This document shows, piece after piece, positions 12,888 through 44,219 of a DNA stretch of 64,000 nucleotides. Position 1 is the first letter of the stretch; each line of letters begins with the position of its first letter. Both the position numbers and the translations under genes were made by a program. The DNA lies in NCBI GenBank assembly GCA_012932295.1, contig JAAONU010000001.1, positions 49,139,134 through 49,203,133 of the forward strand, in the 5' to 3' direction. Under the pieces are notes generated by a model. The model did not search any database and was not told where the DNA came from. It saw nothing but the letters and a program-made list of their open reading frames with translations. This DNA is from Cyclina sinensis (lineage: Eukaryota > Mollusca > Bivalvia > Venerida > Veneridae).

Positions 12888-13546
12888 TCACGAATCAACA
12901 GAGTATGTTCTTGATTTCGGTTTAAGTAATGGCGTTTTCTGGCGTTCCGTTTTCGCTAACCTCATTACTGGCATTGATATTCTCCGGATGAAGGACTGAC
13001 GTTTTTCTTCAAGTTGAATCCTTTCTTTAATTTTCTTTTCTAACAACTGAAAGACCGCATCAATATTTTCACCTGTTTTTGCTGAGGTTGTCACAAACTT
13101 ATCTTCCCAGTCCATACACACGATGGATTCATTGACGGTTTGTTCACCACTTTGACATCCCTGGTCCATTTTGTTAGCCACGACAACTATTGAATATTTT
13201 CCATTCGTTTTGTGCTCTTTGATTTCATCTCGTAATGTTTTTACAACTTCAAAACTTTCTGCGTCACTGACGGAGTAAACAAGAACAAATGCGTCACCCG
13301 TTGCAATGGCGAGTTTGCGCATGGCCGGAAACTGGTGTGATCCAGATGTGTCCAGTATGTCAATATCAACAGACATGGTTTCAAATTTCATACTGTGACG
13401 ATGTAGTTCTTCGATGGTTTCCTTGTGACTTTCTGTAAACTTGTTATGAAGAAACTGGTTGATTATCGAACTCTTCCCTACACCAGCAGTTCCCATCACT
13501 ACTACGCGAAAATTCTGGCTCGCCGATTCCCGCCGAAAAGGCATCA
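12888..13546 (-). CDS. Ras-like small GTPase (RASD/Dexras-Ras-dva type), main coding exon
   Basis: Predicted small GTP-binding protein acting as a GDP/GTP switch. The residue numbers below count from the ATG at 13544 (218 residues). Seen: P-loop GTAGVGKSS (18-26), switch I with T43 in TIEELHR, switch II DTSGSHQFPAMRKL (65-78), base-binding NKMD (124-127) and SAK (154-156). DTSG instead of DTAG, and a non-Gln residue after the Gly, are typical of RASD/Rhes and Ras-dva proteins; the SH-FPAMRKL pattern recalls Ras-dva. The C-terminus is basic (about 173-212), has an RRIS motif (187-190), and ends YSVDS with no CaaX cysteine. The reading frame also opens at a GTG at 13547-13545, but its first G is the last base of a splice acceptor (TTTCAG at 13552-13547). 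The exon therefore begins at 13546, and spliced transcripts should read G|TG ATG. The coding part has no further intron. It is the only confident gene in the window. Whether the family is Ras-dva or RASD proper is uncertain. Confidence 0.93.
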
Positions 13547-14286
13547 CTGAAATTAAACGAAAACCATTTTAAAATAAATTAAATATCCTACTTTGCACGA
13601 TATGTAGTTACATTTTAATCCTTAAGTCAGGTATTGTCACTTTTGTCAAAATAAGAAGCAATAAAACAAATCTATAAAGTAATTGAAAAGGACAGCCGTG
13701 TCGTATCTGTATTTTGTTATCAGTAATGCATTATAACGTCTGCAGAAAAATCTGTATTGCCGAGGCATGTTTGCCGAGTAAACAATGCTGCAGATAACAT
13801 GAAGCACATTATTGACCATATTCCGCTGGTTTCCGGTAAGGCTGCTCCAATAAACTAAATCTGAACATTTCACCCCAGAATTAATACCTGATTTTCATCT
13901 TGTTTAAAGCAGACATCAAATATTTTGAGAGGAGAAGTGCAAAATTAAATCACACGCTTAATATGATGAAAAAGATCAATGTAAGTGAACTTCATTCACT
14001 TTAAAAATATAAAACTTAAAAATAAAAGTTAGAATAATTAAAAAAAGATACCAAATTAAATGCCTTTTTAAAGTCCAGTATACTTTATCTTATTAAAAAT
14101 GAGGAAATCGCACATAAAACGAAAAATACTTTAAACGCAATATCTGATTAATTACCCTTCATCTCTTAAATCCTTGTTTTGTCTAAGTTGTAAGAAGGAA
14201 ATAAATAGGTAGATGATATTTCTTTCTTATATAATAACACTACACTGCTAGCGGCAGCAACGTCTATACGTTATATCAGATTTGTT

Positions 14287-14323
14287 CAGTGTCTAGATAA
14301 GATTTATTGGGAAATCTGATACA
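14287..14323. repeat. Short block repeated at 18,741
   Basis: CAGTGTCT..AAGATTTA.TGGGAAATCTGATAC is shared with 18741-18776. Similarity fades on both sides, with weaker agreement downstream. Both copies lie in the putative GTPase intron and may be remnants of the duplication that made the promoter array. Confidence 0.5.
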
Positions 14324-15939
14324 TCGCCAACTGGCGAACTAGGTTTCTGCAATAATTTTTCCTGTTTTCTTGTCGTTCAAAAGGCCAATGGACCTTTTTA
14401 TGACTGAAAATAATGTGAATGTCTGCTTTAAAGACGAAATCATAGTAATAAGAACCTAACAAGGCTTATCTATTTAGTAAGAACACTGGCTTGTGATTAA
14501 GGAAATCGAAAACCTGAAAGATCTAAAACAGCAACAAAGCATTGTTTCCTTGTTGTAAATCTTGACAAATTAAGAAAACCGTTATGTAAGATGTTAATGA
14601 AGCAAGATTTTAACAGAATATTTTAAAATTTATATTACTGAGACATTTGAAAAAATATATAAAGCGAAACCAGTTATTTATTACTGTAGATGTTGAAAGC
14701 TGTAACATGATTTTGCATTTTGTAATTTTCGACCAGTTATTGAATTAATACAATATAAAGGAAGTCTAAGATATCTAATGTCTGTAATTAATTAATGCAA
14801 ATAATTGTTTATCATTCTCCTCCTATTTGAAACCTTTTATTTTGACCAAAAAGCTAGATGAATAAAAACAGCTCAAGAATTAAGACAGACGTTTAGTCAT
14901 ACATTTTCAAATGATGCGTGACGGTGAGGACATGTCTACGATTAATTAACAGAGCGTCACGTTTCAAGAAAAATACGAGACATGCAAACCACAAAATAGA
15001 ATAAAAGTAGATTAAAGCATTAGATCGCTAAAAATGAATCTATAGATAACGGGAAAAAATGATATACACAAAAAGCTGATAAATATAGTTGTTCATCACT
15101 GTCTTATTATATCTTGTTACAGAAATAAAACAAAATAAGGAAAATGGCATTCCTTTGATTCAGATGGTTCACCCCTCTCAAATTTAATTAAAGTATCTAT
15201 GTATGTAACAAGATGTACAAGTCATCACATAATGTTTACCGTCAAGGTATAAGCCAAAACAGTGTTTCTACTCCTTTGTACAAAATTTCATGAAAATAAT
15301 ACAAGGTCTTGAATATTCGCTTTATTACATATGATTTGTAATTAAACCTGTCTGCAATAAAGTCTGTGGGAATTTAATGTATAATTTACGAGTTAAATAG
15401 GAAGAAGACAAGGACAAACTTAATTTGCCTGTCAATTAGAGGATACAATGAAGTAGGAAAATCAGATTTTATTAGATGTATTCAAAATGGATCGATCAAG
15501 CGGAATAGAACCAGTCTGATTTTTCAAAAAATTGCTTAAATACAAGTCACCTTTCTTTATGTCTCTGTTTAGGTATAATTAAGAAGATAAGGTCAATTAC
15601 CACACACATTCACACACACAACAACAACAACAACAATAAGAGGAAATAGACATTGATTATAAGAAACTGGAAACCGGACACTTATTGCTTTTTTATCGTC
15701 GTTTTATACCATACCCTTGTCTTGATTACGGTTAGCAGAAGCCAGTACAAAAGGGTATATCAAATTACACTTTACTGATGTGTCTGAACAGCCTTAAGAC
15801 AAATACATAATTATTGTTTACACCGATGGATGCTCCCCGCGGCTAGAAAACATTGCCAGGTAAAAATGAATTAAAATAAATTGGGGTAATTCGACGAAAA
15901 AAAAGATTCTTTTTATACAGCTCAGGGAAATGCATGCAA

Positions 15940-16310
15940 GCTACCTTTATAATAACTCATGACTTTTGACCCCTTAGTGTGAACTTGACCTTCAGGCCAC
16001 TGACCTGGTTCGTGCGCGCGACACAACGCCTCATTGAGGCAAACATTTGAGGCAAATTCCTCCAACCAGAGTAAAAGTAACAGCACTGACAAGAAGAAAT
16101 TCAGCCAAAATGTGACCATTACCTTTGCTCTACCGGCTGTGTCATGCACACAACACACAGTCTCGTCTCACTGAGGCAAACATTTGTGGCAAGTAATTTT
16201 GAAATCCTTCCAAACAAGGCAAAGTTACAGTCCGGACAAGCAAACGTATAACAGAATGACGGACGGACAAAGCGAGAGCTATATGCTTCACGAGTTTATT
16301 TTCGGGGAGT
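15940..16310. repeat. Dispersed bivalve-type repeat
   Basis: It contains two related halves, each with the string TCA(T/C)TGAGGCAAACATTTG (about 16,031 and 16,168), and ends with GACGGACGGACAAAGCGAGAG. The mix of TGACC/TTGACCTTCA motifs and a terminal GACGGACGGAC run is typical, to my knowledge, of common non-coding repeats in bivalve genomes. It is not assigned to a named family. Confidence 0.45.
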
Positions 16311-17956
16311 ATAGAAACTGGAAGTTTTAAAACATGAACAGTCTTCTTTTTTTCAGTTTAAGATAAACGGGTGAGTCATGTATCTTCACATGCCAAAAAT
16401 GTTAATTAGTTATATTTATTTCGATTATTCTTTACTTTAAAACAATAATGTAAACAGAAATCATACAAAAGCTTGGCTTTATCTCTTCTAATATTACTGC
16501 CAATGCAATTAAAAATTAATCAATATATTTCTTCGATTATAAAATGAGACGAAAAGGCTTCATCATATTCTGTAATTTCTTATACATGTAGAATACGAAC
16601 AGTATTTCATTTTTGTACAATCTTGTTTAGAAAATACCGTTACATCAGCGGAGAAGGAATTTGATCACGTTTGAATTTCTTATTTACTCATCATATGTAC
16701 AGGCCAATTCCTAATAAATTCTTCTGATCAAGAATCCTGAAAATTGTATTTTTAATAATGAAAATACTTGTCGCATTTTTAATTTTAGGTATCTTTTTTG
16801 CATTATCTATAACAACGTAACTGACTTTACATCACTGCCAGATGATTCATCATTGATATTAACCTATTTATTTTTGTATATTTTTACAAATTCAGAAATC
16901 GAAAAAAAAAAACAATTTAGAGACTTGGGCATTCTGTCAATGACCGCTGGAACAAGGAGTAGGCATAAGTCGATGTTCTTAATTTCACGCCAACAACTGT
17001 CATCTCTTAAACTGTCAGCATATTCTCTGAAGCTTCTTACGAGTGCTTATCACGACACTGCTCCATAGTTTGTTGTCATTATCCTAAAAGTTTAAACATT
17101 CTGAGACATTAAGAACCCTGAAGAAGACATACGTATGTATTCAGAAATAGGAAATAATCAAACACATCAGCAAGTCTGCAGTTAGAATTTTATTCTAAAG
17201 ACATTCTTCTGACCCAGTCAATGGCCCTCCTGAGTTGGGCAGATATCTTGATATAAGAAAATGAAGAACAAAGAAAAACATGTTAAATGCTAAATTAGAT
17301 ACAAGTTCTTTAATTAAGAAAAAAACTTGAAACATTAGTGCATTCCTCAGTCTCACCAGTACAAAAATCCTTATGATCATTCATACGATCTTTTTTGTTT
17401 GTTTGTTTGTGTGTTTGTTTGTTGTTTTTTTTTTTACTTTTTGAATTCACAAACTACTAGCATTTTTTTGCTTAACAGATACGCAACAGATCTGCTTTAG
17501 CTTGAACAAATACATTCTAAAGAAGTTCAGTAAGTGAAAAAAGATTTTGCTTTTCTTGTAAATGTGAACATTATCAAAACAAGCATTCATCATTACTAGT
17601 TGGTTTTCACTACAGTTCTCTGATAACATTAATTAGTTAAATAAACATATATGTTCTCTTTATAATGTACCGCTGTGAAAATCAGTTGGTGCTCAATAAT
17701 TGTTAAAAAACACTTACATAAGGGTTTCAATGGTAATCATCACAAAACGTACCTCTTATTTGTGCTAATGAGGTTCGTCAAATTAAGGGAAGGACACTCT
17801 AGCGAACCCGGCCATCAGTGTTAACAATATAATATAAAATAATTAGAGACTTATAAATATACCAGCAAGGTTTAAGCATGATGTGAATACAGAATCCGAG
17901 GAGAGTATTGTATGCAGATGTGACGGCTAGCTAGATAGACGGGATGACCAACTTAC

Positions 17957-17990
17957 CTCATTAAATACTTCAACGTCGTGGAGCATATAT
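17957..17990 (-). other. Possible 5' UTR exon with a consensus donor
   Basis: The minus strand reads TTTAATGAG followed by GTAAGT (intron starts at 17956), a near-perfect donor. An ATG about 30 nt before the donor opens ten codons in phase 0. If joined to the acceptor at 13546 it would stop at the TGA of TGATG, overlapping the GTPase start codon. A short shared motif (GCTGTGAAAATCAG) lies about 285 bp away on the intron side, both here and at exon B. Speculative. Confidence 0.22.
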
Positions 17991-18740
17991 TTTGAATATG
18001 TTCGTATCTCAATCGATACTGTGCATTTAATCACATTTACATTGATTTTTTTAAAATCAGACTCAGCTTTCCGTTTTCAAGAAAGTAAAGCATTTCTAAA
18101 CAATAAAACATTCATGGATAAGAAAGTAAACTATTTAATTTGTTTTAACGCAATTATCAAGAACTTACTGAACAACTCAATTAGAGCGTATACAGACATA
18201 TGTAAGTGATTGTTAATCATAAATCCGACACTGTACCCGAAATCGTTATATCAAACAAAAGAATGTAAAATATTGTACGTCGTGGCAGTTATTTTTAGAA
18301 TTTGTGATCAGCGTTTGAAAAGGTAAAATTTCAAATAGAAATCCTTATTCCGTTAAGAGTCATTGTTTTGAAACGTTTTCATTACGCAGGCCGGTATTTT
18401 AACAGAACTACATGTGTTTGGTGTCTTTACGAGTTTTTATCCTTGAATGGTTAAATCTTTAGAATAGGTTAAAAGAATTAAAAAGGACCACAGGACTTGC
18501 CACAATTACGTTCAATTAAAAAATCTACGGGGAGAATAGTTATGACATCTTTAACTGCAAAAAAGAAACTGGTTCGATCACAGGATCTGATCTTATCTTA
18601 CCAGTTAAAGAAAAATCCAAACACTAGTAATATGACTGATATATTCATATATTGACTTAAGTATGAGAAAAAATATGCGAGGATTAAATTTCAGCATCAT
18701 TAACCAATGTCGGTTGTTTCAGCAGTAGAGAATATCAGCT

Positions 18741-18776
18741 CAGTGTCTCGCCAAGATTTAATGGGAAATCTGATAC
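18741..18776. repeat. Short block repeated at 14,287
   Basis: Partner of the block at 14287-14323. A GATGAATCTATGTTTTCC string further on (about 18,817) resembles one near 33,925, behind exon C. Confidence 0.5.
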
Positions 18777-20416
18777 AACACAGTCGTAATGTGAAACTGC
18801 TGCTATTGCAGTGTGATGAATCTATGTTTTCCTAAAGTCAAAAGACCTATTTTTTGGATAGAGTATCAATGACTGTTTAAAAGAAAATACACTAGGGAGG
18901 AGTAAAGCAATGACTAGATACGGTTTAGGTAAACACATGTTAAGAATTAAGACTAAGAATATTAATTAAGTTTCAATTTATTTCAGCAAACCTAAATGAA
19001 CATGTTAAAATCACAAACTTTTATGTGTTTCTGATCGAAATGCAAACAACACTGTCCTGCACAAATAATTTTCACAGAGTCTAAATTAAACCAACGTATT
19101 GTTTGGTTATACATTTGTTTACAGTAATTTTAGTATGTAAATGTCTTATAATGATGACATATTCTTAAATTTAATTATTCTTTTACCTCAACTGGGTCTT
19201 ACCAGTACTCTCCACTTACTTTTTTTCTAACCTAACTATGTTTTAGGGAAGCTGAGTTAGACATAATAAGATATTTCAAAATAAATTAAATAGAATTAAT
19301 CGCGCAAAGCTATCATTTCCCTTCACCAGTCCTGTATTATTGGATAACGTATTAGACAATATTTTATAAATTTTAAGTGAGGTTGTTTTTTTTCTTCATG
19401 AAATGTATTGAGATATGTTAATAAAGATGTGTTACCCTATCATAACTGAAATGCGAGTTTTTATTACCGCCTTTAGTACATGATGATGTTATCGTATTAC
19501 GGTTTCGTGGGGTGTACTATAACTTATTATTATCATGCCTTGAACCAGTCAATACTTTGTAATTTACTAACTTATTGCTAGATCTCTTGTAGCAACCACA
19601 TCATAACCCACCCGTTTCATTAAGAAAATGATCCTCGTCATAATATTCAGTGTCATTTTCAGCCCCGTTTATTGTTTGTACTGAATATTCCTAGAAACCT
19701 TTGAGCCTATTCGATAAAAAAGAATCAAATTTGTAACAGCTGCTGGAAGTCACAGTTTTACGTCTATACTATTTTTTTCTAATAGTGTTTTGAGATTATA
19801 ATCAAATGCTGTTGGTTATACAGCTATACTACTTTTTCTAATACTGCTTAGAGCATATAATGTAACCTTTTTGGTTATACTGCTAGGGGAATAAAGGCTT
19901 TTTTCCTAGACAGGAATTCACGTTTTTTTTTCGTCCAGAAATATATTTTGAGAATGAACTATCGTAACATCTTTTTTTGAACTTCGAGCAATGTTTAATT
20001 TATTAACGTGTTCTGAACACACAGATTAAATAAACAAAATGCATGAGAGAGCATGTTTGAATGTTGCTTGCATAATGCGTGCGTAAGGGAGGAAGGCAAC
20101 TTACTGAGTGTGAAGATGAGTGAATAAGTGAATGAATGAGATGTGTACGTAACAGAGGAACTAAGATTAAGTGTGTATAAGCGGCAGATCGTCAGTCAAT
20201 GACGATTATAATGGTATTTGTTAAAACAGTATGTAATATATTTCAAAAGTGTAAAACATAAAGGCCACACGGCACATCTTGAAATAATAAAAAACTAAAA
20301 TTGTTATTGCGCAAATAACATAAATAAGTAAGGGTAAATTCAATTAATAAATGAGCAAGCGTTCAAACTACCTTCAAACTCAAATTAGGGCAATGATTTG
20401 ATATAAAAGTGTATAC

Positions 20417-20444
20417 CTTGTACAGAATTATTTAATTTATCCAT
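20417..20444 (-). CDS. Alternative first coding exon A of the GTPase gene
   Basis: On the minus strand an ATG (20444-20442) opens nine codons, MDKLNNSVQ, plus one G, followed by a GTATAC donor beginning at 20416. Phase 1 matches the acceptor at 13546, giving G|TG = Val, then MPFRRES of the GTPase. The product would be 228 residues. Copies B and C have the same length, donor phase and near-identical peptide, with substitutions confined to residues 3 and 6 and to synonymous positions. This is too short to be found by ORF length; the evidence is the three-way comparison. The 5' UTR probably runs to about 20,573. Splicing to the GTPase is inferred from phase and orientation, not observed. Confidence 0.7.
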
Positions 20445-20599
20445 TTTAATACATCTATATATTTTCCAGTAACAACAACTCTCCATAAACTACACTGAAG
20501 CCAGAACCATTTGTTCCTTTTAGTAACAGTTTCTTCTAAGACGGCCTTTAGACCAACTATGGCACTGGCGCTTAATTACCTAAATCAATGTCTTCTATA

Positions 20600-20607
20600 C
20601 TTTTATA
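20600..20607 (-). promoter_or_regulatory. TATA box of alternative promoter A
   Basis: The minus strand reads CATATAAAAG. It lies 156 bp upstream of the exon A ATG and is followed by the conserved TAATTAAGCG block near the expected start site (about 20,570-20,575). The corresponding position in copy B also carries TATAAAAG. Confidence 0.6.
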
Positions 20608-20994
20608 TGGGCATAATAAATCATGGAGAGGGATATTGGAATTTTTTTTTTGTCGTGAAGAGAGACCTGTAATTTGCGAGATTTCGTATAGTAAATATAG
20701 GTATTTTTTCTTCTAGTCGAAACATGATTTTTTCAGAAGTACGAAAATTCAAAGAGTTCTAATATGGCGTATAACCTACAATTTTAAGGATGAAAGTTTA
20801 CGTGCAGATTAAGTTTGTTCCATCGTTACATACCTACCATTACATATTATTTACTGCAGTTAATGCAATAGGGAATACCAGCTTGTAAATGTCTAGCCAC
20901 TGATAATTAGAAAGTCGACTACAAAAAAAATCTTACAGATGACATTAGTTTTGTTATATGATTATTTATCCAAATTTCTTGTCCGTCCCCCTTT

Positions 20995-21033
20995 CCCCCC
21001 CCCCCCCCCCAAAAAAAAAAAAAAAAAAAAAAA
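20995..21033. repeat. C16-A23 homopolymer junction
   Basis: Sixteen C then twenty-three A, followed by (ACA)-like sequence. The minus strand is a G16 run. It is prone to sequencing and replication error. Confidence 0.85.
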
Positions 21034-22439
21034 CAACAACAAAAAACAAAAACAAACGTGTACAAATAGGAACAAACAACGTCAAACAGCGGAATTCATA
21101 ATTTTGAAACTGATTTGTTTTCAAATAAAGAATTCAAAAATTGGACTTAAATTAAAGACCAAGATTCACCTGCTGAGATAAAATATACCAAAATATCAGG
21201 AATTACATACATATGTTTTACAGTTTTTCTTTTAACAAGCATCTTAATCTAAAACAGACATTGGACATTCTTTATTTTTTATATTTTTTTTTAGATCTGT
21301 CTAGATATGCATTTAGGTGAAACCGTTGGTGTTTACTACAGGTTTGTGAATATGGGATTGTATTTAGCTATCCGATTAATTGGATTGAGAAGGGTCAATT
21401 TCACATATATGTAAATTCTGTTATTTTAGAGTATTTTATCTTTGTTAGTGAATCTGACCTTTTATTCATCGACAACGTTCACCTAGATATACGAAAACGG
21501 CTATTAGAACTAGAAAACATGGTATTTTAGCTTATTTCTTAATTAATCATGATTAGTTAATTTTAGTCACTTTTTATATTCCTCGATTTTGTTGTTTCAA
21601 ATCGAGAGAAATAGAAAAAGATAGATTTTTTCCGGTATTTCCAAACAATCAGATGTAATCCATTTTGAACTGGTTCGTACTGGTACGATAAACTAAGAAT
21701 ACGAGCTTTAATATTGGATAAAAGACAGTTTTAAGTAGCATAGTGCTAAGGAGCTTTAATACAGAGGATGGCTTACTACAATATATTTTATACAAATGCA
21801 CCAAGTAGCTTTGAAAGATATCTACAGAATGATAGAATAATGATCATCTCAAAAAGATCTATATTCAAGTTTTATAAAAGGAATTAAAAAGCATAAAATT
21901 TAATGAGTAAAACAAAATCAACTAAATTAGTTTTCTAAGGATATTCATTTCTTTACTGTTGCACAATGACGTCTCCATCCACAAAATTGACATTGTTAAC
22001 CTTACGAGTGTTCTGTTTTCTTTCGTTTTGAAAGAAAATCCAGAGAAGAGGGTAAAAAACAATCATTCATTACTAGTTACACCTACGGCTACATACTTTC
22101 ACTGCTATATGAAAAAAAATCATTTTAAATGTAAACAAATGTATTTTCACTAATATCAGATTGCTTTAAAGTTACTGCTTAGAAATAAAAAAGCAGACAT
22201 TAAATTTTTGAAGTATGCGTTGACCGTTTGAATTTGAAGACATTTTTCATAACCTTTCTTTTTAAACGAAACTGGAGTAAAAATGCCTGTCAAATAAGCT
22301 CAAACTTGCCAATCATGTTTAAAAACACAAACACGATAACACGTTTATGGGTTTTGGCAATGTATTTTGCCACATAGGGGAGAACTAAATTCCAGATTCT
22401 CATAGATTTCGTCAATATTCTGTTTTTTTTCTTCATTTT

Positions 22440-22884
22440 TGTGTCGCCTGCTACAAAGTAGCCGCGACATATAGGGATCACTTCTCCGTCGTCTGTCTGT
22501 CCGTCTGTCACAAACTTATCCGGACTACTCCTCAGAAACTACTGGTGAGATTTCATCCAAACTTTACAAGAATGATCAGTACCAAATCTTGTGCATATCA
22601 TCCGCATTTTCCAGTTCAAAGAGTTTTGTCATAGTTATGGCCCTTTAATGATTTTTTATTTTTAATGTTTGTCCGGACTACTTCTCTTATACTACTAAAG
22701 CAATTTAAATGAAATGTTACAGGATTGATTGGTACCTCAAGTACTTGCGCATGTCTAACAGGTTTTTCGGTTGAATTATTTTTGGCTGAGTTATGGCCCT
22801 CGAATAAAAAAGTGCGTTTTAGCCTACAAACTGTCCAATCACCTCTCAATACTACTGTTTAATTGGCTGTCATCAGGCGACACA
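22440..22884. mobile_element. MITE-like dispersed repeat with 11-bp inverted ends
   Basis: The left end TGTGTCGCCTG (22440-22450) is the exact reverse complement of CAGGCGACACA (22874-22884). The left end also has an internal hairpin (GTCGCCTGCTAC-AAA-GTAGCCGCGAC, imperfect). The interior holds two related ~170-bp halves, each with TGTCCGGACTACT-like or TATCCGGACTACT-like and GAGTTATGGCCCT-like strings. No coding capacity and no obvious target-site duplication. Confidence 0.5.
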
Positions 22885-25459
22885 TGTGATCACTGATCGC
22901 CCTTGTACTAGTTTCAACTCAATTGTGAAAATCTTGCTATAAGCATGTGTTCCTTTCACTTATCACATGAAGACACGTCATGATACTTCAAACATTGTTA
23001 CAATGTTAAAAGCAATACCGACGTCCAAGATAACTTAAGGAAACGTAAAATAATTTGTTGCCTGAAATGCATAAAACAGCATTTAACATTATTTCATAGT
23101 AGAATGTGAGCTGCAGCCTCGTTTCCCGGAATCCATTCATCTCAAGCGCCAATGTAACCAAAGAGATATCATTTGGTGTAATGTAAGTTTCAGATGTCTT
23201 TTGTCAGACTAAAATATTCAGTCAACTGCGATTATTATTAAACGGAAACATTATATGAAGAACAAAAGGAACATTATAGCTCGGCCCAATTTTTACTAAT
23301 GCTTGAAGCATACATTACCGCCTTCATTGGCAGACGTTGTGCTGCACCAGGGACGATTGCCGAAGAAAAAGTTATATAGCGGACATTTTCTCTCATACTA
23401 AATACCGGTGGTTAATGTACCTGTCACCTCTTGAGATACCAGACACTATTTGACAACATTAAGCAAGCACTTAATTAGACAGTTAAATGACGTTTGGTGC
23501 AATTAAGCAAGATATTCTGGCATTTAGAGACAATAAATCTCAAGGATAGATATCCACTCTTGCACAACAAAGTAAATCAAGTCTTAGGTGAATTCACAAG
23601 ACATATCTTTACCGATTATTCTATGAATAATCTGACTGCAGAATAGTTTTTCCTTTATACCTTTATACCATATTCATCTTAAGTTCTGATTAACGAGTAA
23701 GACAACAAAGTTTTGGTTATGTCCATGTCTTACATTTTACTCAATGTAATTTCTAGCAAGATACGCAATATTACATCTCTCCTATTTACGTATTAATCTA
23801 GATATCATACAACTTACTTTACCAAGTAAGACAAATTACATCTTTACATACTTCAGCTTCAGACTACAGACTTCAAGATATAATATCATATTCAGTAAAA
23901 TTCAGTGTGAATGGAAAGTATACTGACATTGTCGAATGATTTCGTAGACTTTGGTCTAACGTCGAATGCATAATCAAGAGTATGTGTTTGAATATTAGAA
24001 TAATAAGCTTGTTAAAGAATTATATGAATAATTCGATAGTTATTCCATGATTGGGATTTTAGACATTTATTTTGTGTAAACGCTGCCTTTGCTTATCTTA
24101 ATAACAATAGTCCTGTTAGAATATAACAATATGATGCTCTATTAAAGTTCCTGGAAACCATTGTTATTTTATTATTGCATGGAACATTGAATCACTACCA
24201 GTCGGAAGGAAAAACAACATGGAAACCACATCTGTCCAGACAAATTTAACTGTGCGTTATCTATTTGATTTGTAATGGCAAAATTAAGATGCACTATTGT
24301 AGTATTAACTAAAGTGGTTCAAAATAATTTCATTAGGCGGATTGCTGTCACAAATTATAATGGTATAATCTATTATTGCATTTGATTATTACCGTTAAGG
24401 AGGGCTGCCAGAAGCATTGTAAAAGTTGTAAGAAGTAGACGCGTAAAATGATTCCAGAATTATTAAATATTTTATATCTATACAGATGTAAAACGTGATT
24501 CTGTAATTCTGCAAAACGTAATTCTAGTTGCCATAGAGTTCCATGAGAAATGGAATATTTAGGAAATACTTTGATAAAGCTTCACATAAGGAACATTTTG
24601 CAAAGTTTCACAGATTTTGATTCAGCAGCTTCGTTAGAGATTTCATTTAAAGCAAATAATAGTTTGACCACCGACAAAGACCGGCTAAAAACTGTTCAGG
24701 TGAGCTAAAATCAATGGCATTTCTATTTCTACTTTATTCTAAATACGCTGGAAATACGTTTTGAGTTTAATTTCTTCGTGGCCTCCGTTTATTGTCGTAA
24801 AAGGCACAATCTTTTAAAAGCAATTCAAACAAATGCTTAAAAACGTCATAAATAAAAAGAAACTATGCTGACAAGAGAAAAGAAAAGTCTCATTCTATCT
24901 CATTCTGCAATATTCTGTTACCTGTCATTCAATATTAAAAAAGAGAACAGGAGGTCAATGCACAAAGTTGATCATTTAACAGAACTGATAATTAATTAAA
25001 CAGCATTTAAAGGTCATTGTGTTTTAAGTCATGTATTTCATTTGATTGGTTAGAGCAATTTCATTGATGCAGTCAACAGCCCGTCTTGTCACCTGTTATT
25101 TGCAACCACAGCAGCAAGACGACGGAACGTACCATGGAACCGCACGAGTACAGAAGCTGATATCGTAGGATTCTGACCCAAGCCTGGTAGAGGGCTATTG
25201 TATGTGTCTTACAGGCAAGAGTTCTAATGTCATTGCAATTCCGAAAGAGTAATTCATTTATTTTTTGTTCTCTATTCACGATTTTGTGAATAATTGACTT
25301 TCCCATAGTTTACCAACAGGATTTGTTATAGTATTGTTTCTTTTAAGTAAGATTTGCAATTTTCATTTTAATCCGTTTACAAACCTTTTCAATAGGTAAA
25401 TAAGCACTGCAAAATAAAAAAGCGAACCCTCTCGTTATTTATATCAAACTAGTTGATCT

Positions 25460-25771
25460 GTTACGGTGGCGCTGAGTCATGCTATGTTACGGTAGCGCTG
25501 TGTCATGCTATGTTACGGTAGCGCTGAGTCATGCTATGTTACGGTGGCGCTGAGTCATGCTATGTTACGGTAGCGCTGAGTCATGCTATGTTACGGTAGC
25601 GCTGTGTCATGCTATGTTACGGTAGCGCTGAGTCATGCTATGTTACGGTGGCGCTGAGTCATGCTATGTTACGGTAGCGCTAAGTCATGCTATGTTACGG
25701 TGGCGCTGAGTCATGCTATGTTACGGTGGCGCTGAATCATGCTATGTTACGGTGGCGCTGAGTCATGCTAT
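25460..25771. repeat. 26-bp minisatellite, 12 copies, with AP-1/NF-E2/ARE-like cores
   Basis: Twelve head-to-tail 26-bp units begin at 25460, 25486, 25512 and so on to 25746. Eight carry GCTGAGTCAT, which fits the NF-E2 consensus YGCTGAGTCAY and, on the other strand, the antioxidant-response core TGACnnnGC. Units 2 and 6 read TGTGTCA, unit 9 TAAGTCA and unit 11 TGAATCA. The shared variants in units 2 and 6 suggest a 4-unit (104-bp) higher-order duplication. It lies in the putative intron of transcripts from B and C and about 4.9 kb upstream of promoter A. Confidence 0.9.
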
Positions 25772-27352
25772 ATTAAAATAAAAAATATGAAATCTCCAGA
25801 AGTCGTGTATTTTTCTCTCAGACAATTATTCCCGAAGGTCATTTGTTTCTCTTAACGATGGAAAGTTGTGACTGGACTGAGCGAAGTGCATTTTTAGGCG
25901 ATGAAAGTGTTTGATTTCAATTTACAGCTGATTAAATACGCAATACAAGTCAACCTTCAAACTGTTTATACCAACGCCAAATTCATGTGAGTTATTTTTC
26001 GTCATTTTAGATTGTTGTACTATTTACTTGCAGGAAATATTTACTTTAGTAAATATATATAAATTTGATTAGAACTTTTAGCATTAACAGACAACAATTT
26101 ATTTGGACGGCTCAATCTCAAGTTCAGGGACACCGACCGTCCGAAGCGTTGGAGAACTGTTACTGAGTGAAGACTTTTGAAGCTTTGGAAAAGTAACGAT
26201 GTCATATATTTGCCTTTTATATTCCTTATTGTATATGGGGGAAAATAATGTGCTAATTAAGTTTGGGATTTATTATTTTACGACTGTGTTTGAATACTTC
26301 AGCTGAATTTCTCTGCTTCAGTGGTTTTTAATATTTTCCACATAAAATTTGATTACAGACATTTTAACTCGTTTGTATATTGACCATATAGTATTTTTGG
26401 CACAATAACATTTTCTCTTTTTTTCAATGCATGCTTTTATACTTTTCCCAGAGGTTGTAGCTCCGAGATACAGCTTGCTAAGTTCAGCAGGGACTGCAGA
26501 TGAAGAGATTATATAACGCGCTTCTGTATTGCATAATATAATAGGATTTCCATAAAATCTAAGAGATACATGGACCAAAAGACATCAGTAAAATCTGTTA
26601 AAACCACATAATTCAAGCATGTCGGGTATTTGTAATAACAAAAGATAATGGCATTTTATCATGTTTTCCCCTCTAAAAAATGACACAAGATGATGTCAAT
26701 GTAAAAAAAAAACTACATGTAACTGAATGAATTTGACATGTTAATTTGTAACGCTGTAAAACATCAGATGACTAGAAAATCAGTGGGCATAGGACTTGTG
26801 AAACACTACAAGAAACAGATTTAACTGATAAATCGTGGCGGTATCAAGGTGCACTGACTTTACCAATAAAGACGTCTGAGCACATTAAAATGTTTAACAA
26901 AGTATTTTCAAATGACTTAGGAAACAGCTCAAGCCTTCTATCACCTATGTATATATCGTATCAGGACAACGATTCACATCTTAGTGATTCACGATGAAAC
27001 AAAATATCACATGAGTTAAAAAGAAATTAAATTTCTGCAAAAATATTTAATTATTTACTTATTATATGTGTCTCAGAAATAAAACCGGCTGTGAAAATCA
27101 GTACTGATAGAATCTGAAGCAGATATCTATCACCTGAGTGACGTTTAAAATTAAATTAAAAAAAACCTCAAAGTTAATATATAAATTTAAAAGCTAAAAA
27201 AACACTACAGACTTTTCTTTTGAGAAAATTTGTATTGTTTGATACTATATTAAAATAAGAGAAATCAAAATCAGAAGAAAATAACGCAATACGATTAAGT
27301 CCTTATTACCTTACAAATAGAGATAAAAATAGGTACTCATAGCAAATATTAC

Positions 27353-27380
27353 CTTGTACAGAATTATTTAGACTATCCAT
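27353..27380 (-). CDS. Alternative first coding exon B of the GTPase gene
   Basis: Minus-strand ATG (27380-27378), nine codons MDSLNNSVQ, then one G and a GTAATA donor starting at 27352. It has the same 28-nt length and phase as copies A and C. Upstream sequence is recognisably homologous to A through the UTR and core promoter, for example the shared TAATTAAGCG and the ...TGCCAT..TTGGT block. It would splice about 13.8 kb to the GTPase exon, in frame. Confidence 0.7.
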
Positions 27381-27542
27381 ATTGTCTTCATACATTGTAA
27401 ATATTGTTTTCTTCCAAGAAGTAGAGACACAATACAAACAGCGTCTAACCAATACACTGTGTCATTCCTTTCAGTGTCAGATAACCAGTAACGATCTTAA
27501 AACCAAGGATGGCATTTACGCTTAATTACACGTGTCTTGTAT

Positions 27543-27550
27543 CTTTTATA
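27543..27550 (-). promoter_or_regulatory. TATA box of alternative promoter B
   Basis: The minus strand reads TGTATAAAAG, 163 bp upstream of the exon B ATG. A CACGTG E-box (27529-27534) lies just downstream, and the TAATTAAGCG block falls where the start site is expected (about 27,513-27,521). Copies A and C lack this E-box, a possible promoter-specific difference. Confidence 0.6.
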
Positions 27551-28584
27551 CAGTCCCAATAAAGTCTAGGGAGAATTATTGGAGAGATCGCAAACAGGGA
27601 ACAATGGCAATGAATATGTCGGTTTATCGTTCAACTCCAGCCGTATACTTAAGCATGTATTGCTTGTATTCTGTTAGAATAAAAACAATCAGCGACCGTT
27701 TTATATCTGCTCTTCAAAGGAAAATTAAGAAATGTACCCAATATTTACTGTTTCCATAGCACCCATATGTTTCAATACCGGTGAACATTGATCACTGTGA
27801 CATAATAGTTTAAAGTATAAAAGCGTGTTATGTGTGTATTATTATATTATAGGCACACATTATTTAATTTCGAGACGCTTGAATATTTTATTTTTTTCAG
27901 AAAAAAATCGTCATAATATTTAAACATCGGATCAAATGGGTTCAAAGTTAATGTTGCTTATCTGTCATCAACTGCATCAGCGAGGAATATATGTATTCTC
28001 TAAAAATCAATTAAACTAATCTATTTAATATATAAAGAATAAACATATCTGTCATTTTCTATTTTAAACATTTTAACACGTAAATGGATAAAAATATTGA
28101 ACACTCGAGATATTTCAGCTTTCCTGAGGCTGTTCAGTTTGTTTTTGTGACCGACCGTCATGCATTATTATGCGTCATAAAACGTACCGTTTGCACTCGC
28201 GACATAAAGTTGAAGGTTGCATAATCCAACCAAATCCTTTTAAAAGAAGAAAAATGCATCATATGCAATTCCCTTGATGATGAATTAATTCCAGTTATTC
28301 AATAGTCTTAGATCGAAATATATACATTTTTTTCAATTTAGAGTACACCCTAACTACATTAAAGTGAAATGTTTATGTAAGGATGACAAAGTCCGTGCAC
28401 ATCAGAAATTGTCTGTGTATGTATACAAGTCGTAGCGTTTGAAAGCATATTGTACATAAACATAATTCTGCTACGGTTCAATTTCCCTGATTTAAACAAT
28501 TTTCGTTTTAAAAGTAAACGTAACAACCATTCGATGTAGGTAAAATTGAAAATATCTACTATATTTATAAATTAAATTACACCC

Positions 28585-28883
28585 TTATAATGCTTATATG
28601 TTATGTTACTTTTAACGCTTAAACATGGCAACATCCTCTCCCCGTGTAGTCGCGGCACCATTATATTGCTTATATGTTATGTTACTTTTAACGCTTAAAC
28701 ATGGCAACATCCTCTCCCCGTGTAGTCGCGGCACCATTATATTGCTTATATGTTATGTTACTTTTAACGCTTAAACATCGCAACATCCTCTCCCCGTGTA
28801 GTCGCGGCACCATTATAATGCTTATATGTTATGTTACTTTTAACGCTAAAACATCGCAACCTCCTCTCCCCGTGTAGTCGCGG
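28585..28883. repeat. 76-bp minisatellite, four copies
   Basis: Units begin at 28585, 28661, 28737 and 28813 and differ at only a few positions. Each holds CTCTCCCCGTGTAGTCGCGG, a GC-rich patch that stands out in this AT-rich region. Confidence 0.9.
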
Positions 28884-30635
28884 GATTAGCATTTTATTGA
28901 CAATTTAACACACCTTTGCAACTACCTTCCCAACTCATTAGCTGGTTATTTTACTATTAAATGTAAATGGCAGTTTTGTTCATAGGACAGAATGACATAC
29001 AAATAAAGTGTTTTCATTTTCTTCTTTTAAAGGCCTTCTTCGTCACTTTTTAGCTTGTTAATCTAGCAATTGCAATATGTACTCGATCTTCATAACATTT
29101 CAAATAAATAATAAATGAAATGTTTACCTGATAGTTTATTCCTTTAAGAAATTAACGAATGACCTCCAAATGTAAATTAACAAAACGATGCAACAAAAAA
29201 ATTTATATCTTTGGTCGAATCCATTTAATAGGCTTCTTGTTCACTGAGGTATATCTAAAGCTGTAAAAATAAATATAGAAGTGTTCGACAAGCTACCCAA
29301 ATGTTTCGTAATATTGATAAATTAATGCATTTTGTGAAAGGTTACAAGTTTGACAGGTTCATATATTTGTCCAATCTGATTATTAAAATCATCTCCTAAA
29401 AAACGATATGTTAAGATTTTATCTGGAAATTTCTCACTTTTATTTATTTTTCGTACTCTTTTTTTTAAATTAGAAAATATGAGAAGATTTCAATAAATAG
29501 ACAGATTAATTATGTAAGTTGTAGTCATTTAATCTGAAGTCTGATTATTTTGAACAATTTAAAAAAAACAGCAAAAAAAACAACAACAAAAAACAAAGTA
29601 AACTGTAGTTGATAAATATTCTATAATAATAAAAGTTTCAAAAAGTACAATTTGATTTGGATTTAAGTGAAAGAGGAAAACCCCTCACGCGTATCTTAAC
29701 ACTTAAATAACTAAAGTACTCAATGTTTTGATACTGAATTTTCAATTTCGCATGTACTGAACACGTAAAACGAGCATTTTAAAAAAGAAAACTGATGAAT
29801 TTATTTCTTTAATTTTCCTAAATATTTACACACGATTTACATTATTTATCATTAAGCCCAAATAAAGCATAACAACCAGATATAGTACAAATCGTTAGCT
29901 TAAATTTCCTCTTTAGAAGTTCTTCCGTTAGATAAAAATAACTGTAATTAATGTATTATCACCCATAATGCTGCGTTTGAACAGTTGTATAACCGTGAAG
30001 TCATTTGTCTATTTATAGAATTTCAATACAAATTTAAATCTCTCGAATTTATTTCATCAAGCTGAGCTTCACCATTTGTGGGAAGAATTGAAGAACTAGG
30101 CACAACCAATACTGAAATAAAATGATGTTTTTGTTTGCAAACCCTTTTAGCTAGGTTTATGTACCGTCCTTACAAATATGAGCTGTTTAGATTCAATATT
30201 GAAGAAATAATTCGTTCATGATTGAAACAGCAACAGCTATACAAAAAGAAAATTATCAGATAAAATCAGAATTCCAGCTGGGACAGCTGGGACAACGTTG
30301 AACAAGATAAAAAAATCATAGATATTTACACAATAATGGATATCTAACTGTAAGTCTGGATATAAATCAGCATAAATCTCGAGCCTATTTGTAAATAAAT
30401 GTATTATTATATTTCAACTGAATTAAATTTTAGCGATTTTTATCTTGAAAGGAAAATCCAGGCGCTTTTAATTTGTTTTAGTTATTTGTTTTAGTTACTG
30501 AATCATCTGTGTAGTGTCAACAAACTTTTACCGAATGTTATACAAGGTTAGCTTTTTTGAAAAAGCTAGTCCTGGAGAAAGCATATGAAAAGCAATAAAA
30601 AGCGGTATACCTTGGTATTGATATTAATATGACAA

Positions 30636-30916
30636 TTGTTTATTGTTTATTGGGGTTTAACGCCGATTTCAACATCTAGGTTATATCTCGGCGGTCAGTC
30701 CACCTAACCGGTTTTCCTGGATAACTAACCAGTAATTACCAATTTCTCCGCAAGTGACTGACTACTGTTCCCACTTGATCAACTCTGAATCAGCGGTGAG
30801 AGACAAATGAACATCAGACACAATGCCTGAGATCAATTGTCACGGAGAAATTTTGCCCGGCCCAGGGGTCGAACCAGGGACCCATGGATTACTAATCCAG
30901 TGCTCTACCTATTGAG
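30636..30916 (-). mobile_element. tRNA-derived SINE with 13-bp target-site duplication
   Basis: Read on the minus strand, the 5' head is tRNA-like: an A box near TAGGTAGAGCACTGG and a B box GGTTCGAACCCC (30854-30916). A central domain follows, then a 3' tail ending GGCGTTAAACCCCAATAAAC. The copy is flanked by perfect 13-bp repeats ATTAATATGACAA (30623-30635 and 30917-30929), proof of retroposed insertion. It resembles tRNA-headed SINEs with conserved central domains known in molluscs; the exact family is not assigned. Confidence 0.88.
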
Positions 30917-32309
30917 ATTAATATGACAAACACGTACAATATTCTTCCTCAAACAGGACCATGCCATTGAGAAAATAGCTTTTATTACATATTTATGTGA
31001 ATCGCACTGTTTGATAAATAAATAACTTACTGTTGTTTAGAATGTAAAAGTGTAAATCGAAATAGTTTTTGAGCAAACGAGAAAATATATGTTGTTATGA
31101 AATCTGTACTTGTCCTTCGTCTGTACACGTACGCGTGATATACTCGCAAGGAAAATACAATTACAAATTTATGAACGTTTGTTAACTTCAACTGATTACT
31201 GTCAAAAGTCACTACTGACTATACTAGGCGGGCGCGTGTCAGGAACGTTAAAATTATAAAAGATAAAAAACAAAGTGAACAAGACTTTAACTAGAGATTT
31301 TACTTAAAACATTTATTGTGAACATTTAAAATCCATAAAACCTCTTCAAGCTACTTGTTCTTGTTTAATATAAACTATATAGTATTTTTTTTTCAATCAA
31401 AATATATAATTTTGGACATATTTCGTGGGCTTTGACTGTTTGTTTGGTAAAGCATTTAACTCAGATAAAAAAGGCCAAACTGCACGCAATGATTCTGTAG
31501 TGCAGTTGTCGCTGCTACCATGCAAACCACTTATTCTATACAATATTTATTAAAGTTTTATATATAGTATTAAGGGAAACATGATATATCAAAATATTAT
31601 GTGATGTAAATATGAGAACAATATGAAGCTAACTAGAAAAAAGTATGTGTAATTATAAAATTATTATATGTAAAATTACGAAGAAATTAAAAACGTTATG
31701 CTTCTTTTTCTCGTATCTCTACTGGAATGTTTCTTTTTTCTTTTAAGTTTCTCAGCTTGTTCCAAGATCTTTTACAAAATAGCATTGCCACGTTATTACG
31801 TTTCGTTAAATTTAGAGGGAAGTAATACACTGCATTAGTCAGCGATATTATAGCATCATTTTTTTGTGTGTACTCAAATTTCTAGAATCATAAAATGTCT
31901 TCAGAAATAGAAGCCAAGCTAATTTGTTGCGACAGTAGAAAATTACACAAACAATAAAATGTAACAGCGCGAAATATACTGTCTTTCTTTCACATTCTGT
32001 ACAAATTTTCTATCTATCTTTTCTAAGAAATTTACCCTTATTTTTATGTTTTTTTGTTTTGTTTTAAAATCATAGTTTGTAAGCCATGCCACAGATTACT
32101 TTATGATTTCATTGCCAAATATAGATGCTTCATATATCTGCATGACTAGACAAATAAGACATTCAAGAACAAAATCCATGTTTGCATTGTTTTCGAAGAC
32201 TTACTAGAAAAAGACTTTATCATTTGAAATGTTCGTTAAAGTACAGGCATTGAACACAAGGTACAAATATAAAAAAACTAACTTGAAAACTAACGCTACG
32301 TTCGAATTA

Positions 32310-32540
32310 ACACCATGCCCTCAGGTGGTGGGGGGCATTAAACTTTGACCCCGTGACCTCTAAATGTGTCTGACGTGTAGAGGTGCATGCACCTGTGAGG
32401 TTTGGAGACTGTTGGTTGAAGGACTTCCGTGTTATGGTCAAGGTTAAAGTTTTGTGACAAATAGACAAACTAACAGACAGACCAGACCAGACCAGACCAG
32501 ACCAGATAGACTGAAAACAATATGCTCCCTCCGGGGGTAC
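32310..32540. repeat. Dispersed repeat with an (ACCAG)n run
   Basis: It has the same style as the repeat at 15.9 kb (TTTGACCCCGTGACC, GTCAAGGTTAAAG) and includes about six GACCA/ACCAG units near 32,480-32,506. A 91-codon minus-strand frame across it is not a gene. Confidence 0.4.
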
Positions 32541-32631
32541 AAAATCTAAAACAAGTAATAAATGTGAAGTTACAAACCCCATTATTATTACGAGGAAATA
32601 TTACTTGTTTCATATATGCCTTTCCCCTTAC

Positions 32632-32665
32632 CAGAATTATCTATATTGTCTATATAAAAATCAAT
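32632..32665 (-). pseudogene. Degenerate relic of the repeated first exon
   Basis: The minus strand contains GACAATATAGATAATTCTG followed by a GTAAGG donor (intron G at 32631). This resembles the exon A-C body ...AAT.(A/G)ATTCTG..., but the TACAAG triplets before the donor are missing and no ATG remains in frame. The donor is still phase 1. It lies about 0.9 kb from exon C. It may be a dead fourth copy or chance similarity. Confidence 0.3.
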
Positions 32666-33398
32666 ATATTGTCCAGTATCCCAGGCACTTCTTAAATTAA
32701 ATCATTAGATATCTTTTAATAATCTTTAGATAGCGATGCCGTTCATGTTCAGGCCGTAAATCACAAGGGCCTATAATATATATCGAGGTATTGAAGAGAT
32801 CAAGGCTCATGGGCATTGTCAACATCTCCTGAATTTCAGTGACAATAGTCTCTAAAATAGATCTACCAACTCCATTATCTGAAAAAAAAATCAAGACAGC
32901 CTTTTTCCACAAACGTTTTAACCGATTATTCACTGAACATTGTTACTACACCAATGTCATGCATTTTATTAGCATTTCTATGACGTCTGTGCTTTCATGT
33001 TTATTGATCTTTGTAACAAAGGTGTATATGGACTTTTCCATGTGGCAATTCGTTGAGGTTTAACAACTTCATGAGAGAAACTATTCTATGACTATCTCTA
33101 AATTTAATACAAAACAGCTAAAAGTTCTGAAAACAAACTCTTATCTTGTACTTCTACCGTTCATTGAAAATAAAATCAAAGGCACACGAATATTGAAAAT
33201 GAACAAAAGTATATTTATTTATATATCCTCAGTGATGTTCAAAATTAAATTAAATAAAATTAAAGAATGAGTAAAATATAAGAACAACTATGGGAGTTTA
33301 TTATTTCTTTAAATAAATAAATAAACGTACGCGATAACAAATATCTTTTCCACCCATAAACAAAATAGCAACTTCATAGAAAATAAGAAGCTGAAGAA

Positions 33399-33482
33399 CA
33401 GAAGACAAACATTTCACATATCATTTTGTAACGTAACGTTCAGAAGACAAACATTTCACATATCATTTTGTAACGTTACGTT
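33399..33482. repeat. 42-bp tandem duplication
   Basis: Two copies (33399-33440, 33441-33482) beginning CAGAAGACAAACATTTCAC differ by about one base. It lies within the putative intron, just inside the exon C donor. Confidence 0.85.
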
Positions 33483-33537
33483 AATTTCCTGAACCAAATC
33501 GGGAAAGCGTTAAAGATTTTGTTATAGAAGTAATTAC

Positions 33538-33565
33538 CTTGTACAGAATCATTCAAATTATCCAT
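33538..33565 (-). CDS. Alternative first coding exon C of the GTPase gene
   Basis: Minus-strand ATG (33565-33563), nine codons MDNLNDSVQ, then one G and a GTAATT donor starting at 33537. Length and phase are identical to A and B. The intron to the GTPase exon would be about 20 kb. An alternative reading is that A, B and C are first exons left from duplicated genes whose second exons were lost, but no second GTPase exon is visible between them. Confidence 0.68.
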
Positions 33566-33706
33566 ATTACCATCATGCATAGTTTCGTGATCTGATATAC
33601 AGACACTGTAGATACGTTGCATCAAAGCCAGATCGGTGTATCATTCCTTTTATCAAAATATCTGACAACGATCTCAGACCCAACGCTCGCTCACACATGT
33701 TTTGTA

Positions 33707-33714
33707 CCTCTATA
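33707..33714 (-). promoter_or_regulatory. TATA-like element of alternative promoter C
   Basis: The minus strand reads GCGTATAGAGG, 142 bp upstream of the exon C ATG, in the position of the better TATA boxes of A and B. The match is weaker, so this promoter may be TATA-poor or divergent. Confidence 0.4.
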
Positions 33715-34084
33715 CGCGCCTGATAAATTCTGTAGAGGGATATTGGATATATCAACAGTAGAAAAGAGTCATTTATAGAAAAGAATGATCATGTAACTTG
33801 TTAAATGCTTCAGTTTCAATCATGTTTCATCTTGTAACAGACAATTCAGGAAATTAAAATGTTTTTTTTTTCCTTTCTGTCTTGGAATACAATGCAATAG
33901 GCTACCGTATTGCACTTGTGGAGATATGATGAATCTGTTTTTTCCGGAATGTGACAACTTCCTTTGTAAAATAATCAGTGGTCAATTTCGGAAAGGTCAT
34001 ACCGTCTTGAACCAGAGTAACAAAAGTAATACTACCATTCCATATATATCTGAAATACCATGTAACGAATAACTCTAACCCTTA

Positions 34085-34140
34085 CTCAAATTTACATTGA
34101 ATTACACGTCTCGTACATGGGCTAAATTATCTCTGAGGAA
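34085..34140 (-). promoter_or_regulatory. Partial relic of the repeated promoter block
   Basis: The plus strand reads TTTACATTGAATTACACG, close to TTTACGCTTAATTACACG of promoter B (27516-27533). No clear first exon follows on the minus strand. This supports a history of more promoter copies than the three intact ones. Confidence 0.3.
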
Positions 34141-37100
34141 AAATATTGCAATTAGCAAATAGCACATATATCAAAATATACTTTAACTGCAGCTGTATAA
34201 TATACTCGTATCTTGTGATAGCTTAACCAGTAAATTAAGATGCGTTTACTAAGCATAAAACGCAACCAGACATCAATTTGCACCTGTTTTATCAATTACG
34301 CTTAACATTTCATGTGACCACTTCAGTTCTTCATATGAAAACATACATACTAAAAATCAGCTGCACGGTGTTAAGATTCAGAGCACAGATATTCAGTACA
34401 AGTGTGACTAAACAGTGTAAATTAAAATGTATCTTAAATGTTAATTATCAGAACGTATAGTAAAGGTATTTATTGTTGATATGTTTACATTGTATACCTG
34501 TATACTTAATACGAAGAAGAAGAACGTTTATTTTTCTCTTAAACTACAAGTTTCTCGTGAATAACATATAAGCATACATATAATGGCATGAAAAGTAAAA
34601 GTGACATGGAAGTTAACATGATACGTCTGAATAATTAACGCAGTATTAAATGTGATAAAAATTGCAGTTTTTCTTTCAGCAGCTCTGCCGCTTTCACTGA
34701 CAATCTTCACACCAAATATGACACCCTATTGCATTTCCATCAAACTGACTGAACGCTGATACAATGTCTCGTAGAATCAAATCGCGTATGTCATTAAAAA
34801 TACCAAACCAAAACCGAACCTTTCTTGTAACAAAAACAAAAATACGACACTGTATTGATATTTAAAAAGAAAATACGATTTTGAATCCGACATTTTTGGG
34901 GAAACATGCTGTTTTCATTCCTTGATTTTAAGCTTGATCTTAATAGGGAAAAAAATGGACTGAAATATATGTGCCTCATTGTATTATCAGAAAAGAGAGA
35001 GAATTTATACCTGCTTCAGTATCCCTCTTAGCATTCAACGAAAATCTGAAACAGTTCCTAGATAACAGTTTTTTTGGATAAAATATCGAACAACGTAAAA
35101 TTTTATTTCTCTGTCGACTCAGTCATAAATTTTATCACATATAAATCTAGAGATAAACAAGCAATTAGTGTGAGAATGTTTGCTGTGATTTATACCCCAA
35201 ACGCTTGGGTAAATTTGAAACCTACTTAATGTAATAATGTTTCGCGACAGGTTACTAGTTTAATATGTTAACATATATAAGGGTACAAAACAAAAAAAAA
35301 ACTGCTAAAAAAGTCAATCAGTTTAAGAAATTAGGTTAAGAAATACAATATATGGGCCGAGACGTAGTAGTCAATTGACGTAATCGTGATTTATGCGACG
35401 TAATGATGACTTGCGTCTTCATATTGCTACATGACGCTTGCTTTTCTGATTGGCATTACAGCCTTTTAAAGATTTTTTTCTCATGGTTTGTTCTACTTTT
35501 GTTAGATTATAATCTAAAATCGTTTTTCGGCATCTGTAATGAAGCAGTAACTGAAGGTGTTCGACATTAAGAATGACCCATATAGACATTCGGAACGTCT
35601 TTAAAAGTTTACTCATTTTGTGACTGAAATGGAAAAAAATAAATAAAAGGAAAAATAAAAAACAAACTGAATGTCTAAATGGGCCGTGTCGTGAGATTAT
35701 CAACAATGTGGTCAAATTTTATATTTTCAAGTTTTATTCACTTTTAGATTTTAGACTTTTTTGGAATTACTTTTGTATACTTCTTTCGCATTCTGACTAC
35801 AACAAGGTACACTGAAAGTGGAATAAACAATGTGTATATAATATATTTCTATTAATCATTTTTGGCATCAAATACGTCATACCACGTAACATGCAATATG
35901 CGATATAGCTGCTAGGTTGTCGTGTGGTCCAGATCAATGTTTCAGTAATTTTCAAACACTTAACTAGCATTTTTCAAAGACAACACTTTTTGGTTATTCA
36001 GAGAAGGGAGAAAAGATTGTGTTTTTGCAGAAATTGTTAATTAGTTTATGACGTCAAACGTCAAACTAATTTTCGATGACGTCAAACTGACCAGACTGTT
36101 GAAGTCACAAAGTCAAACCTTTCTATGCTTAATAAGTAAAAACATATGACATGTCATTACGAAAATCTGACTATCTCCTTTTCCTGGTATGCTGGAAATT
36201 ACTCATTCTCTCTTTTTACATAAGTCCTTTTTTCAGACAGAACGTCTGTAATAACTATATATTTGAATATTTAATGCAGTTCAGCGTCAGGCAATACTAC
36301 ATTATAAGTCATATTAAGCAATTATATATTCTTCTTTGGGACTGATTGTAGTTAAAATGTAATATTCCTAGATTCCTAAAGCAAATATGTCATTCATATG
36401 TGTTTATATTTCAAGTAAAAACTTGATTTTTTCGCGTTTTAAAGAGATACTAAAGTAAAATCTTATTTGATAATTGGTTTCAATTTCAAACAGTGGCAGA
36501 AATTTATAATAAAAAAACAAATAAGTTTTGTCAAATCAGATCGTTGCTAGTCCATCTGTCCATAAAAGGTCTATTCATTTTGAACTGAAACCTTTATATA
36601 TAACTTTATAATAGTGAACCGTTTCTTTTTTAACAAAGTTTAATATATTAATAGACTTTTCGTTTTTATCAATATATATACTGTATCTATATAAGGTTTT
36701 GTCCATCGGCCTGATTCTATACGAAGTTTGTGATAAGATAAATGTAATCCAGATAATACTTTGACGTGTTTGTCTGCAGATTTTACGTTCAAATCTCCTG
36801 AAATATGAAGCTATTAATTGTTCTATAAATCAAAGCTTATGATGATTCTTCTAATCTACTTTGTCAATTTTGAACAAAATTATCTTTTAGGCGCCGTTTA
36901 AGTATGATAAGAAATAGATTTACATTTCTAACATTTTGCTGTAACCATACGTCATAAAACCCTCATAAATAAGTATATAGGATAATTTTAAGTAAAATGA
37001 CAAAGTTACATAAACCATTAGAGCCGATAATATAGGAGTATCAATCACATTCTTTTCATGCGTAACTTCAAGCTACATACTTAAAGTAATAAACAAAACA

Positions 37101-44211: not shown

Positions 44212-44219
44212 TGACGTCA
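44212..44219. promoter_or_regulatory. CRE site in duplication copy 1
   Basis: TGACGTCA within GTGGGTGACGTCAAAGCCAC; conserved in copy 2 at 54286-54293. Confidence 0.4.

Follow-up and report, generated by a model that had tools for sequence, protein, structure and literature searches.

Arrays of similar first exons, each with a promoter of its own, are described for UGT1, for Gcnt2, which has three such exons, and for the protocadherins (PMC1885805, PMC3325998). In UGT1, one of these sources states, a conserved motif precedes every exon at a roughly constant position (PMC1885805). Hormones modulate the levels of Dexras1 and Rhes in the account of PMC3979064, which provides a precedent for control at the level of expression in GTPases related to the one considered here. 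No report of alternative first exons in this GTPase family was found among the matches listed, as judged by titles and abstract starts, and the combinations of alternative first exon with DIRAS and of alternative promoter with RASD1 gave no report on the subject by title or abstract start.

The locus compared here with these systems lies in a stretch of 64,000 nucleotides of the clam Cyclina sinensis (assembly GCA_012932295.1, contig JAAONU010000001.1, positions 49,139,134 to 49,203,133), hereafter called the window. I consider it likely, on the strength of the DNA sequence, that three alternative promoter/first-exon modules, arrayed in tandem, feed one Ras-like GTPase gene. In each module a TATA-type box lies 33 bp beyond a TCCAAT box; then come a putative 5' UTR, estimated from the TATA position at roughly 120-140 nt, and a short coding exon ending in a phase-1 donor. 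This exon would be spliced over 7-20 kb to the single GTPase exon at 13546. The products would be near-identical, with a variable leader of about ten residues, and the choice of module would set when, where or how well the mRNA is made, through promoter use together with differing upstream ATGs and uORFs. The array would have grown and shrunk by birth and death of modules, a fourth copy seemingly having decayed. Transcription from the modules, their promoter activity, their splicing to 13546 and their distinct regulation are predictions of this model.

Three homologous modules and a GTPase exon

On the minus strand are three 28-nt coding starts, each encoding MDxLNxSVQ and ending in a phase-1 GT donor (CAAG/GT), just as the earlier note had described them (Table 1). 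The acceptor that it proposed, TTTCAG/TGATG at 13546, holds as well: joining any of the three modules to it gives an open frame of 228 residues that passes through V-MPF into the GTPase, with leaders that vary at positions 3 and 6 only. This acceptor offers the best combination of acceptor and frame between 33537 and 12900 (1030 candidates). Two or more homologous first exons, in tandem and in one orientation, mark the multiple variable first exon kind; the locus has three of them, and one downstream exon, at 13546, in a phase that fits all three. In a 30-mer consensus scan of the window the modules stand at 0-2 mismatches and the next best site at 6, while a profile built from the three modules and run over 124 kb gives three matches at E <= 1e-56 plus one weak match (12.6 bits, E 0.004). 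An N-terminal search (5 matches of 9 candidates) found no protein with an MDxLNxSVQ N-terminus.

Table 1. Positions of the features in the window (a slash marks a splice junction)
Feature	Position	Strand	Remarks
Exon 2, GTPase coding exon	12888..13546	-	218 codons from MPF plus stop; acceptor TTTCAG/TG ATG; Pfam Ras 122 bits
Probable decayed fourth module	15171..15392	-	Promoter/UTR similarity; exon-like but ATG-less stretch at 15200; TATA box absent; similarity suggestive
Intron from module 1, inferred	13547..20416	-	6.9 kb; introns from modules 2 and 3 longer
Module 1 first coding exon, MDKLNNSVQ	20417..20444	-	Phase-1 donor GTATAC
Module 1 putative promoter and 5' UTR	20445..20640	-	TCCAAT 20640-20635; TATAAA 20607-20602; in-frame ATG at 20486
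Module 2 first coding exon, MDSLNNSVQ	27353..27380	-	Donor GTAATA; in-frame ATG also at 27395
Module 2 putative promoter and 5' UTR	27381..27583	-	TCCAAT 27583-27578; TATAAA 27550-27545
Module 3 first coding exon, MDNLNDSVQ	33538..33565	-	Donor GTAATT; in-frame ATGs also at 33580, 33622
Module 3 putative promoter and 5' UTR	33566..33747	-	TCCAAT 33747-33742; diverged TATA-type box TATAGAG 33714-33708

The spacing from the TCCAAT box to the TATA-type box is exactly 33 bp in all three modules, and the homology runs from the TCCAAT box to the donor, fading past it, which supports the earlier proposal that promoter and first exon were duplicated together in tandem. A TATA-like box does lie upstream of each start, as that proposal had it, but at 163, 170 and 149 bp from the ATG rather than at 142-163 bp. 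When module pairs were compared with 1000 random windows, only 2, 3 and 1 of these were as good over the 200 bp upstream of the ATG; from -410 to -210 the pairs are not distinct (151, 121 and 109 as good). On the intron side, modules 1 and 2 stand out as a pair (7 as good) and the pairs with module 3 do so less clearly (85 and 77). A local-alignment test of the upstream regions against 500 windows, a set that in part overlapped the module under test, is less sharp for modules 2 and 3 (16 as good) than for modules 1 and 2 (4) or 1 and 3 (0).

Further in-frame ATGs, located 42 nt upstream of the MDKLNNSVQ ATG in module 1, 15 nt up in modules 2 and 3, and again 57 nt up in module 3, render the MDxLNxSVQ start ambiguous in all three modules. 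Short upstream ORFs are also unlike between modules, and it may be that translation as well as transcription differs from one module to the next.

Exon 2 encodes a complete Ras domain (Pfam Ras, 122 bits, E 2.2e-35) that contains GTAGVGKS, DTSG, NKMD and SAK, which I take to be its P-loop, DTxG, NKxD and SAK motifs. The window gene is an intact Di-Ras/Rap/Rhes-like GTPase. It differs from RASD1 (Dexras1) and RASD2 (Rhes) in that the nearest solved structure by sequence is Di-Ras2 and in that its C-terminus, SRTYSVDS, is devoid of a CAAX box, the C-terminal lipidation box usual in the Ras family; its basic tail carries an RRISMP motif. Alignment to Di-Ras2 places an Ala in the P-loop where Di-Ras2 has Gly, a position that I assume to be equivalent to Ras Gly12, and a Ser, as in Di-Ras2, at what is presumably the place of Ras Gln61. 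With these residues, GTP hydrolysis by the protein may be weak and its control may rest mainly on the amount made, in which case multiplication of its promoters would tune it directly. One function of Rasd1 is, however, reported to involve its GTP hydrolysis, so weak hydrolysis is not to be assumed for relatives. The window held no RNA family at gathering score.

A tree of 58 proteins, made up of the query and 57 from the listing of 120, groups the window GTPase with P0001, Ruditapes P0002, and Mercenaria P0004 and P0003 (support 99/89); relatives among the listed proteins carry the names Rhes-like and RASD1-like. P0002, a Rap-2c-like isoform X1 of Ruditapes philippinarum (Manila clam), is the likely orthologue, being 82% identical to the window protein. 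It too has a short leader ending Q-V before MP (MMEYLKTHEQ-V-MPL), hence the same V-MP point, although the leader sequence itself, MMEYLKTHEQ, differs from MDxLNxSVQ. Such a leader is what a short phase-1 first exon in that position would be expected to give.

A second genomic copy and a probable decayed module

A genome search with the GTPase gives 35 matches at E <= 0.001, six of which are close (57-100% identical). All six lie on the minus strand of one chromosome (C1), as two collinear sets of three, at 49.03, 49.06 and 49.15 Mb and, 3.1 Mb away, at 45.94, 45.97 and 46.06 Mb; the second set is a haplotype that was not collapsed or else a segmental duplication of recent date. Near-equal pairs are also seen among some of the other GTPase matches (C12, 6.6/12.1 Mb; C1, 56.1/69.9 Mb), and these suggest either that the assembly contains uncollapsed haplotypes or that segments were duplicated recently.

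All three modules recur in the second copy of the array, copy II (C1:46055001-46085000), where their 28-nt exons are unchanged. Across the array the copies are 96-98% identical in long aligned pieces (92-98% with the upstream flank), some stretches being found in one copy only. Modules 1, 2 and 3 differ between copies at 1, 1 and 0 positions, that is, at 2 of 665 bp as against about 19 expected from nearby windows. Exon 2 differs at 1 of 658, and introns and flanks show 1.7-3.7% substitution. Background windows of module size have a mean of 6.1-6.7 differences, and three such windows drawn at random total two differences or fewer with a frequency of 0.009; taken singly, modules 1, 2 and 3 are equalled in conservation by 20%, 20% and 9% of background windows, respectively. 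Since some stretches outside the modules, for example 33792-34791 (0 to 0.4% per 250 bp), are almost as change-free, low divergence between the copies is not unique to the modules.

Minisatellites with 26-bp and 76-bp units flank module 2 (25459-25775 and 28580-28883), and the 76-bp array appears longer in copy II. The two halves of a tandem duplication of about 10 kb (43516-53548 and 53557-63698, 78-89% identical in the main pieces) each harbour a diverged array of 11/22-bp repeats (49141-49610 and 58628-59796), and 4972-6027 is a block of 44-bp and 105-bp tandem repeats, inverted copies included.

The weak profile match mentioned above lies at about 15370-15249. Since 1 of 30 simulated 224-kb sequences scored as high, the match is only suggestive by itself. 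In the 100 bp 3' of it, the expected place of an exon, is the exon-like stretch ATAGATACTTTAATTAAATTTGAGAGGGGT at 15200. At 20 of 30 positions it agrees with one or more of the three exons, a score that 22 of 3000 random windows equal. The whole stretch 15171-15392, which had been chosen by the profile before this comparison, was matched in its alignment to modules 1, 2 and 3 by 2, 0 and 0 of 1000 random windows. Both genomic copies of it lack an ATG, and they differ from each other at 15 of 222 positions. This stretch is probably a dead module in the same intron and provides a natural contrast with the three that are intact. The low divergence of the intact modules is moderate evidence for constraint, made stronger by the contrast with 15/222 in the decayed copy, and suggests that the three intact modules have been kept by selection. 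In copy II, a further weak profile match (L048 8512-8594, 8.5 bits, E 0.018) is located between exon 2 and module 1.

Other readings of the array

The modules might instead be remnants of a tandem duplication of the whole gene, in which a single copy kept its GTPase exon and one or two of the three modules are now leftovers or drive non-coding transcripts only. The family is indeed a tandem cluster here, with three paralogues (the window gene, B and A) on the same strand within about 120 kb, and the protein listing shows it to be multi-copy in Mya, Dreissena and Mercenaria; one module has apparently decayed (15171-15392) and the TATA-type box of module 3 has drifted. Yet tblastn revealed no second GTPase exon in the window, the intervals between modules included, or in 124 kb, where the other matches are short (E 0.25 or worse). 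Moreover, none of the three modules has lost its frame, ATG, donor or promoter spacing, and the two genomic copies differ far less in these modules than in the decayed one. I therefore regard this history as unlikely.

The drift to TATAGAG in module 3 is one weak point of the array reading. Another is that all three donors are without G at +5, and such donors are not strong by the usual consensus. The donors also lend something to the idea that only one module is a genuine promoter and that the others, similar by old duplication, are unused or serve as enhancers. What makes this idea improbable is the pattern of conservation. Invariant columns among the modules amount to 23 of 28 in the exon and to 60 of 130 ungapped columns from TATA to ATG (Fisher p 0.0004), so that coding bases are more conserved than the UTR, as the earlier note had claimed; this is unexpected for enhancers, although the bases adjacent to the donor contribute to the difference. 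The core promoter (23 of 41 columns invariant) is not significantly above the UTR (p 0.18).

Paralogue B lies 98-111 kb and paralogue A 126-139 kb downstream of the modules. Their acceptors (ag/GC ATG at C1:49033547 in A, ag/CG ATG at C1:49061260 in B) match that of the window gene in place and in phase 1, and a short phase-1 leader exon therefore looks ancestral to the cluster. The earlier claim that 13546 is the only matching acceptor with a coding exon holds for GTPase exons within 124 kb; it fails once the wider cluster is considered, where A and B are phase-compatible. Each first exon could then serve another second exon, some modules being spliced past the window gene into B or A. The common strand and phase would allow this, and the profile detected no modules, nor is there any module-like promoter, near A and B in 224 kb: both strands of the 224 kb have five CCAAT-TATA sites, three of them with a short phase-1 ORF, and two of these three are modules 1 and 2 (the pattern leaves out module 3, with its TATAGAG). 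Such splicing would nevertheless have to span about 100 kb beyond a nearer acceptor, and the first exons of A and B may be too divergent for the profile to recognise; Mercenaria P0015, which groups with P0013 and P0018, the latter matching A best, has a leader of its own, MDRNAHTE. I hold this explanation to be very improbable. Slighter still is the chance that the modules form a shared promoter/leader pool for the three-gene cluster, spliced also over ~100 kb into B and A, in which any promoter would drive any GTPase.

The clam array and known multiple-first-exon genes

Three alternative modules feeding one gene thus stay the preferred reading, and the clam array is likely a further case of the known multiple-first-exon kind, in which nothing but the GTPase family concerned would be new. 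The arrangement probably lets one protein be switched on from three promoters. Intact and apparently decayed copies of the module stand side by side in the array, which is testable across clams. Should transcripts confirm it, the array would be a compact example from nature of duplication that altered regulation and left the protein nearly constant.

The array would resemble vertebrate Gcnt2 (IGnT) in that three alternative first-exon modules lead to one gene; the transcripts are established in Gcnt2, whereas those of the clam array are predicted. The variable exons of Gcnt2 encode a substantial part of the protein. By contrast, the clam leaders vary in only about ten residues, and the gene belongs to another family in another phylum. 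With UGT1 and the clustered protocadherins, as portrayed in the sources cited at the outset, the array has in common its tandem first exons; a promoter for each exon, as those genes have, is predicted in the clam from the TCCAAT and TATA-type boxes at their fixed spacing. Their exons number about a dozen or more and diversify the protein, whereas the clam has three and its protein is barely altered: the peculiarity of the clam array is that its variable exons hardly change what is made.
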